DNA of 21,737 nucleotides from a virus. Where the stretch lies: positions 1-21,737 of the IMG/VR virus record IMGVR_UViG_3300042104_000105; one strand, written 5' to 3'. This document shows positions 3,269 through 7,529 of this stretch, in pieces; within the stretch, counting starts at the first letter, position 1; the number at the start of each line of letters is the position of its first letter. Position numbers and translations under genes: made by a program. The notes beneath the pieces were generated by a model that ran no database searches, had not been told where the DNA came from, and saw only the letters and a list, made by a program, of their open reading frames with translations.

Positions 3269-3417
3269 TACTCGGTAGCTCAGTGGTAGAGCGTCATCCA
3301 AAATCTGTAGCTCAACTGGTTAGAGCACTAGCTTAGTCTAGGGGTTCTAGGTTCAAATCCTAGCAGATTTACCATTACACGATGAAGGCCGTAGGTTCAA
3401 TCCCTACTCGAGTAACC
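3269..3417 (+). tRNA. split tRNA gene, tRNA-Val(UAC)-like, with another tRNA gene inside its anticodon loop
   Basis: Outer tRNA of the nested pair. The acceptor is 3269-3275 TACTCGG with 3408-3414 TCGAGTA (7 bp, one G-U). The D arm is GCTC/GAGC (3278-3281/3289-3292), the anticodon stem TCATC/GATGA (3294-3298/3381-3385), the variable loop 3386-3390, and the T arm GTAGG-TTCAATC-CCTAC (3391-3407). The discriminator is A3415, followed by CC. The anticodon loop is interrupted by a complete tRNA cloverleaf. Removing 3300-3374 leaves the 7-nt loop CTTACAC, which has U33 and anticodon UAC (Val), a plausible phage tRNA because GTA codons are frequent in the neighbouring genes. All outer stems pair without loss, so it looks maintained. 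Whether the halves are spliced is unknown. Confidence 0.75.
3301..3374 (+). tRNA. inner tRNA gene nested in the outer tRNA's anticodon loop; anticodon arm shortened
   Basis: Contiguous 74-nt cloverleaf. The acceptor is AAATCTG/CAGATTT (3301-3307/3364-3370, perfect), the D stem GCTC/GAGC (3310-3313/3323-3326), the T arm CTAGG-TTCAAAT-CCTAG (3347-3363), discriminator A3371, and an encoded CCA (3372-3374). The anticodon arm is odd: only 14 nt lie where 17 are usual, best drawn as a 4-bp CTAG/CTAG stem (3328-3331/3338-3341) with the 6-nt loop CTTAGT. The anticodon therefore cannot be assigned (a UAG-like triplet is present but lacks a normal loop). It may be a decayed tRNA, a tRNA with a non-standard loop, or an intron-like element released by RNase P and 3' processing. 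Confidence 0.72.
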
Positions 3418-3420
3418 TAT

Positions 3421-3504
3421 TACCGTATAGCTCAGTCGGTAGAGCGCTTGCCTTAAAATGCAAACAAGCAAGATGTCTCAGGTTCGATTCCTGATATGGT
3501 AACC
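3421..3504 (+). tRNA. tRNA with 16-nt anticodon loop; tRNA-Val(UAC) or tRNA-Leu(UAA)-like
   Basis: The acceptor is TACCGTA/TATGGTA (3421-3427/3495-3501, one G-U), the D stem GCTC/GAGC (3430-3433/3442-3445), the anticodon stem CTTGC/GCAAG (3447-3451/3468-3472, perfect), the variable loop 3473-3477, the T arm TCAGG-TTCGATT-CCTGA (3478-3494), discriminator A3502 and CC. The anticodon loop (3452-3467) is 16 nt instead of 7. Dropping 3455-3463 gives CTTACAA, the usual Val(UAC) loop; keeping the first seven nt gives CTTAAAA (Leu UAA). The class I variable loop argues against a normal Leu tRNA. It begins 3 nt after the CC of the nested pair, so the cluster is probably one transcript. Confidence 0.7.
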
Positions 3505-5788: not shown

Positions 5789-5826
5789 GCGAACACGCAA
5801 ATCTACACTACTATTTATTATTAATT

Positions 5827-5986
5827 AAGAGCATCAACAATATCCATATAGGGAAACCTTGCTGGTGATATGACATACTAACGCGTAGGACGTATGTAAA
5901 TGGTCTTTGACCTTCATTGTTGGAAAACTACGACATAATCGACTATACGAATGCATGTAGTATAGTCGGATCCTTTAGGTGCTTTT
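5827..5986 (+). ncRNA. candidate multibranched structured RNA B (about 160 nt)
   Basis: An outer helix AAGAGCA/TGCTTTT (5827-5833/5980-5986, one G-U) closes a set of nested and side helices: CAACAAT/ATTGTTG (5835-5841/5916-5922), CATAC/GTATG (5874-5878/5892-5896), GGTC/GACC (5902-5905/5909-5912) and a 9-bp hairpin CGACTATAC/GTATAGTCG (5940-5948/5960-5968). All are mutually compatible, giving a junction with a closing stem, as in a folded RNA or long leader. A possible promoter lies upstream at 5758-5788. No family is recognised and there is no classic terminator. Confidence 0.5.
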
Positions 5987-6029
5987 AGTTAATAGTAATA
6001 AATGAAGATTAAAATACAAAGGAAATATA

Positions 6030-6484: not shown

Positions 6485-7037
6485 CCAGGTGTGGTCACCT
6501 TGACCCTAATAACTAGACCTAGCTCCTGAGTATGAGCCTAAAAGACTTCTATATAATTTATACCCTTTGGTCGAGGGCTGACCCTAAAGATTGCTCAAGA
6601 CTTGGTCTGCTTGAGTATTTAGATTAGCTAACAGCTATACATCAACTGTACCTAGGAACGTGCCGAAACAAGCAGACATCCTAGGCTAAGTCACAGTAGA
6701 GCCCAAAAGACATTGATCCGTCAAGTACACGTTATACAGCAGTTATAGAGTCTCCCAAACGTCGACCTCTGGAAGAGATGCTCACGGTGTATAGTTGTTA
6801 GGTGATCTAACTGATCTGCATGAAACGCTAGTGAAAGCACAGGTGTAGAGTTATTGGATATTCACTTATCTCGAATACGTAGCCTACGAACAAACGGGTA
6901 GTGATCAGACGGCAGACGCACTACATAATCAATAGTACGAGGCAGGAGTTTACTTCTAACCTCTTCCTATTGTGTTTATCAGATTGATAGCCGTAAGCTA
7001 TTGCCGATGGTAAGGGAATTCGGGATATAAAAGAATC

Positions 7038-7067
7038 CTGGTGTGTGCACCAGTTATAGTGCACACA
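7038..7067 (+). other. mutually exclusive hairpins just before the fourth tRNA-like element
   Basis: CTGGTG/CACCAG (7038-7043/7048-7053) and TGTGTGCAC/GTGCACACA (7042-7050/7059-7067, 9 bp) share bases and cannot form together. The second ends 5 nt before the tRNA-like acceptor stem. It could guide 5' processing or be a conformational switch in the large RNA. Confidence 0.45.
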
Positions 7068-7072
7068 TACGA

Positions 7073-7180
7073 GAACCTTTAGGCTCAATTGGTAGAGCAG
7101 GCGAGGGGCCGGGATCGTTACCCGTATTATGGATGGTCCACCCTGCACGGTTTCAGGTTCGAATCCTGAAAGGTTCACCA
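7073..7180 (+). tRNA. tRNA-like element with interrupted anticodon arm, CCA encoded
   Basis: The acceptor is GAACCTT/AAGGTTC (7073-7079/7171-7176 plus A7170, perfect), the T arm TCAGG-TTCGAAT-CCTGA (7153-7169), the discriminator A7177 and CCA 7178-7180. The D arm is GCTC/GAGC (7083-7086/7095-7098) with a GG-containing loop, but three nt rather than two separate acceptor and D stem. Between D and T stems there are 54 nt where about 22-23 are usual, so roughly 31 nt are extra. They are GC-rich and fold as GGGCC/GGTCC (7106-7110/7135-7139) with GGG/CCC inside; AGG/CCT (7099-7101/7142-7144) may be the remaining anticodon stem. No anticodon can be assigned. It could be an intron-bearing tRNA, a pseudogene, or a tRNA mimic inside the large RNA. 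Confidence 0.6.
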
Positions 7181-7529
7181 CTTAAGAGCCACACTATAAG
7201 TATAAAATCGTGGAGTTTGCTGGCTTAAAGCAATGTTTCACTGTGTGTTTAGACAACTATCATAATTCGGTGGGTATTGTTGTACTTGTCGTATCGAAGG
7301 TAGGCTATGATGCAAGGCCTAGAAGTGTTAGTGATTGCCGTAACAACAATTATGGCTCAGTTGAAAATCAGCATAGTTTATTGTGTGACTGGCACATAAA
7401 CACTAAAAACAGTCTATAGATGGATCAGACAATATCGGAGCAATTCTGGTAGGAGTCTGATCTAGTGTGTAGATTTGATGCCGACACTGATGTCGGTCTC
7501 AAAAACAATTTATAACTAAAGGAGATTTG

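Follow-up and report, generated by a model that had tools for sequence, protein, structure and literature searches.

Positions 6485 to 7526 (+ strand) of the viral DNA analysed here (the window, 21,737 bp) probably encode a giant non-coding RNA that is structured and belongs to a type found in a lineage of large NAD-salvage phages. It is best read, by analogy, as an unclassified giant phage RNA that resembles GOLLD and has a tRNA-like linker. The presence of a giant structured non-coding RNA in this phage, near tRNA genes, is well supported, and comparable tRNA-bearing blocks in related phages suggest an undescribed type of giant phage RNA.

The window is an IMG/VR virus contig from an uncultured large phage. 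It is near-identical to the records IMGVR 3300042099_000057 (52.9 kb; 20 differences over 21.7 kb, ungapped) and 3300042098_000066, and it carries genes for phage lysozyme, a Band_7 protein, NMNAT, NAMPT, an AAA ATPase, a SegE-type GIY-YIG endonuclease and a Dda-like helicase. The window DNA gave no match against phage records, and when the lysozyme was used as query for relatives only the near-identical contigs were recovered. An island of tRNA genes, found with ARAGORN (with introns) and the Rfam tRNA model, lies upstream of the block on the same strand (3269-3504), and the block itself sits between two complete ORFs, each having its own stop or start.

Coding content and folding of the block

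The initial annotation described about 1 kb of structured non-coding sequence at which the gene-dense flanks end abruptly. Both statements are borne out. There is no coding from 6484 to about 7527, and the ORFs within these 1042 nt are limited to 61 and 69 aa on the + strand and 86 aa in antisense. None of the three reached a meaningful E-value against Pfam and PHROG, and the two + strand ORFs had no tblastn match in the relatives tested, so that no credible overlooked gene was found. When the 52.9-kb contig is cut into 49 tiles of 1042 nt without overlap, the block has the highest GC content (0.43-0.45, against 0.30-0.39 elsewhere). The minimum free energy of 6485-7510 is -316.1 kcal/mol, compared with -279.9 +/- 8.1 kcal/mol for 40 dinucleotide shuffles, which corresponds to z -4.5 on the + strand (z -3.1 on the - strand), and the whole block reaches z -5.4 (14 shuffles). 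By folding energy against shuffles it ranks second of the 49 tiles; the first one (from 39401) holds a group I intron and acts as a positive control, and one coding control scored z -4.1 too. On the other hand, the many nested long inverted repeats reported earlier were not confirmed as an excess, since the number of perfect inverted words (7-10 nt) does not exceed that in shuffles (fractions 0.09-0.40). What argues for a structured block is its stability as a whole, together with long imperfect helices. Promoter or terminator signals above shuffles were not found in the block.

According to the predicted structure, three parts account for the folding signal, all of them on the + strand: a 24-bp helix around 192 nt, two hairpins at 7021-7072 and a 3' domain at 7404-7502. 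The helix closes the domain 6619-6810 (mean pair probability 0.94-1.00) and consists of 8 bp (6619-6626/6803-6810), a G-G mismatch and 16 bp (6628-6643/6786-6801); for this domain z is -3.9. The two adjacent hairpins, of 6 and 10 bp, stand directly 5' of the tRNA-like domain described below (z -5.9). The 3' domain (z -7.1) is composed of a long imperfect hairpin at 7412-7474 and a further one at 7475-7502 (GCCGACA/TGTCGGT), with no U-tract. In each of these three cases, 0 of 200 shuffles were as stable.

A 9-bp long-range helix had also been proposed (6605-6613/6669-6677). The complementary match does exist, but the prediction gives this pairing a probability of 0: 6610-6617 is engaged locally with 6592-6599, and the other half of the proposed helix falls within the loop of hairpin 6651-6685. 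The pair probabilities thus rule this helix out in favour of a local 8-bp hairpin (6592-6617, + strand; mean pair probability 0.94). The loop of this hairpin (6600-6609) contains GTCTG (6605-6609), complementary to CAGAC at 6673-6677, which would allow at most a loop-loop kiss.

Elsewhere in the window, a second ORF-free structured element is found at 5812-6003 (192 nt, 21-bp closing helix, z -5.0), with no match in Rfam.

The tRNA-like domain and the blocks of related phages

The block contains a tRNA-like domain that was overlooked in the initial annotation (7073-7180, + strand). It gives the only Rfam match in the block, a tRNA hit of 19.1 bits (7083-7169) that is below the gathering score of 29. 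Its acceptor has 7 bp (GAACCTT/AAGGTTC) and an ACCA end, its D arm is GCTC-AATTGGTA-GAGC and its T arm is TCAGG-TTCGAAT-CCTGA. The domain thereby resembles tRNA and tmRNA in acceptor, T arm, D arm and CCA, and differs from them in its sub-threshold score, in the lack of any match in the window by the tmRNA model or the ARAGORN tmRNA search, and in the anticodon arm, in place of which stand 54 nt that form no canonical stem-loop. No single excision restores a canonical arm (5-bp stem, 7-nt loop). Part of this region (7113-7125) is complementary to a segment at 6894-6906 on the same strand (inverted repeat I5, 13 nt, 85% complementary); the long-range pairing has a probability of about 0.5 and competes with a local arm. 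With sequence complementary to the 5' domain standing where the anticodon arm would be, the tRNA-like domain would be unable to decode.

In isolation 7073-7180 folds as a cloverleaf, its total stability being ordinary for its composition (z -1.2), and when the whole block is folded its acceptor stem is not the preferred pairing. ARAGORN reports the domain only at a relaxed threshold and with a mismatch. In shuffles, equivalent tRNA-like matches arise by chance at 0.01 per block.

Related phages were collected by means of NAMPT (54-67% identity for the phages discussed here) and Band_7, and their gene neighbourhood is partly common. Their ORF-free blocks measure about 0.55-2.6 kb, with a GC content 0.03-0.08 above the locus average: 0.44 against 0.40 in L180/L168, 0.43 against 0.38 in L181, 0.43 against 0.40 in L182/L169, 0.45 against 0.37 in L173, 0.38 against 0.34 in both L184/L171 and L186/L172, and 0.43 against 0.39 in L225/L222. 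Several of them show a modest folding bias that is not specific to one strand. The blocks of L180, L182, L184, L186 and L225 contain tRNA-type elements and that of L185 a standard tRNA, with about 0 in shuffles. A T-arm with an acceptor remnant is visible in L173, and in L181 no tRNA-type element passes the search.

The initial annotation proposed that homologues be collected and tested for covariation, and this could be done for two relatives. The block was compared by blastn with phages, plasmids, IMG/VR relatives and Band_7 relatives, and only tRNA arms and noise were matched. The closest Band_7 relative (L216, 82%) shows no blastn-detectable copy between the gene and the contig end, which lies 1.8 kb further downstream. 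The collections searched hold no homologue of the window block beyond the near-identical contigs, which confines the covariation evidence to relatives. The blocks of L181 and L182 are homologous to each other at both ends (blastn E 1e-7 to 4e-5), the middle being longer in L182. In the closing helix of a module found in both of them (R1), 57 of 57 cells are paired and 8 of the 15 pairs show compensatory changes, compared with 0-1 in a slid-register control. The alignment and the covariance model were built from four copies, three from L182/L169 (paralogous, from one genome) and one from L181. Judging from these sequence changes, the RNAs of L181 and L182 are real and modular. The R1 model also matches L185 beside tRNA-His (E 0.048) and finds nothing in 33 other loci; in the window, with filters off, the best score is 8.2 bits on the other strand (E 0.32), so the module is not found there. 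Since the R1 helix is absent from the window, kinship with the L181 and L182 blocks is suggested by context and architecture, and the window RNA would be tied to their RNAs only through lineage, position, composition and the tRNA-like domain.

These relatives also bear on another explanation, that the block is not one RNA but a cluster of degenerate or hypertrophied tRNA-like genes, that is, a phage tRNA array whose anticodon arms have been lost or replaced. Several tRNA-like elements with inserts are present in each of the L225 and L182 blocks, L186 has a 66-nt element (L172:11033-11098) with acceptor, D and T arms in which the D and T arms are just 13 nt apart, leaving no room for an anticodon arm, and the two tRNA genes that lie upstream in the window each have an interruption after position 32. 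However, even the relaxed tRNA search finds one tRNA-like element in the window block and no more, and the remainder of the block is long-range structure plus a 3' domain that has nothing tRNA-like about it. An array of this kind is therefore considered unlikely, with perhaps one chance in several of being correct.

Relation to known large RNAs and possible function

Giant phage RNAs such as GOLLD and ROOL belong to the largest structured RNAs that have no known function. The suggestion that size, phage context and nearby tRNAs fit these RNAs agrees with the viral record, the tRNA genes at 3269-3504 and a length of 1042 nt (>800), and it also holds that no consensus is recognised: cmscan of the window (E <= 5) and of the block alone (E <= 10) gave neither GOLLD nor ROOL. 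The cmsearch runs proposed with it (GOLLD RF02032, ROOL RF03087) were negative on the window record, and both models found nothing in eight relatives. The dedicated ROOL searches are weak on their own, given that their positive controls gave no match on either occasion.

GOLLD is a large phage RNA of more than 800 nt found near tRNAs (PMC12286853), and the block fits both traits. It has two domains and a variable linker that lies inside the cage and sometimes holds tRNAs (PMC12286853), which together with the tRNA-like domain strengthens the analogy; 7073-7180 lies between two structured parts of the block, these being candidate equivalents only. GOLLD assembles as a 14-mer nanocage, and any multimer of the block RNA would be putative. 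Unlike GOLLD, the block has a tRNA element with no anticodon arm, and the GOLLD covariance model matches neither the window nor the relatives. ROOL resembles it as a large structured phage or prophage RNA that is often near tRNA islands, and differs from it in the lack of a match, in size (574 model positions against about 1040 nt) and in the internal tRNA-like domain.

The block could also be a GOLLD or ROOL RNA that has diverged too far for the Rfam models to detect it. Its size, phage context, tRNA neighbourhood and central tRNA-type element would fit GOLLD (PMC12286853), but nothing was matched at E <= 5 or 10 in the window, nor in the eight relatives, and the GOLLD 3' region, although described as universally conserved, gives no match. 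For these reasons this possibility is regarded as improbable.

Giant phage RNAs outside the catalogued families do exist and are abundant, as the following cases show. The phage ICP1 produces an unclassified giant RNA of about 800 nt that is its most abundant transcript (PMC7567579), and phage K has two unclassified lncRNAs (PMC9241854). Like the window block, they are free of ORFs and have been likened to GOLLD or ROOL by size or location (PMC7567579, PMC9241854); those of ICP1 and K are abundant transcripts. The ICP1 RNA adjoins a lysis cluster, and in the window a lysozyme gene lies 1.1 kb downstream of the block. ICP1, in contrast, has no tRNAs, and its RNA and those of K were compared with the block by description.

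Still less probable is that the block is an untranscribed or weakly structured spacer, or the leader of the downstream gene, which folds well by chance. Perfect inverted repeats at shuffle level and the lack of a promoter signal speak for it; against it stand the z values of -4.5 to -5.4, the second rank among 49 tiles, the top GC content, an intact tRNA-like domain and the comparable high-GC blocks in relatives.

Returning to the giant non-coding RNA, the most likely course is that one stable + strand RNA over 6485-7526 is transcribed during infection. By analogy with GOLLD, the 5' and 3' domains would fold separately, joined by a linker that holds the tRNA-like domain. With its acceptor stem, D arm, T arm and CCA, this domain appears to retain what enzymes acting on tRNAs usually recognise. 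It may serve not for translation but as a module for structure or RNA processing, or the folded RNA may carry it as tRNA-like cargo; cargo, processing site and decoy would all be conceivable roles. More tentatively, and with a chance clearly below even, these RNAs would constitute a new class of giant phage RNA in large NAD-salvage phages, which took up tRNA-like domains stripped of the anticodon arm and grows by module duplication, possibly as a tRNA-mimicking scaffold or cage. If this is true, the cage could for example hold tRNA-like parts or shield them from host tRNA-cutting defences. An unclassified set from a different phage lineage, with built-in tRNA-like domains and duplicating, covarying modules, would provide independent evolutionary evidence on giant-RNA function and would allow the connection between giant RNAs and tRNAs to be tested directly.

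Introns and interrupted tRNA genes in the lineage

An intron origin of the block (group I or II, intact or as a relic) was considered because relatives carry introns: a group I intron of this phage scores 99.8 bits, and others interrupt protein genes of the relatives G012 and G013. It is a very remote explanation. In the isolated block cmscan (E <= 10) found no group I or II intron family, which largely refutes this reading, RF00028 gives no match there although it does detect introns in relatives and in other parts of the contig, and the flanking ORFs are complete.

The lineage of the window phage is rich in introns. Group I introns lie in its contig and in G012 and G013 (L038:2178-2399, L044:3314-3686, L040:1108-1414, L043:16255-16551 and L046:10457-10795), and the AAA ATPase gene is interrupted by one of them in both G012 and G013.

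Several tRNA genes are interrupted as well. In the window, the tRNA-Val(UAC) gene (3269-3417) has a complete tRNA (3301-3374), with a 6-nt anticodon loop, inserted in its anticodon loop after position 32, and tRNA-Cys(GCA) (3421-3504) has a 7-nt insert, CTTAAAA, likewise after position 32. Further nestings of a tRNA in the anticodon region of another were found at L143:1669-1814 and L161:8097-8242, and at L022:9197-9450 about 180 nt, not called an intron by Rfam, interrupt the anticodon region of a tRNA gene.

When tRNAs with long anticodon regions were sought by pattern, many viral tRNA genes turned out to have short inserts. In about 20 of them the inserts measure 41-54 nt and lie between positions 28/29 or 29/30, and their removal gives a perfect 5-bp stem and a 7-nt loop. 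These inserts have in common a 5-9 bp hairpin of variable sequence followed by CAGCAA or a close variant, and from their sequence they look like a family of mini-introns, of which no published description was found in a limited literature search. They are carried by L047, L064, L075, L076, L077, L078, L094, L095, L097, L101, L113, L133 and L153, among others, and several of the carriers are phage contigs of more than 100 kb. In a second group of interrupted phage tRNA genes (L068:3733-3845, L073:1614-1726, L111, L138 and L151) the inserts have a different motif, GTTCCTATT or TTCCTAT, near their 3' end.
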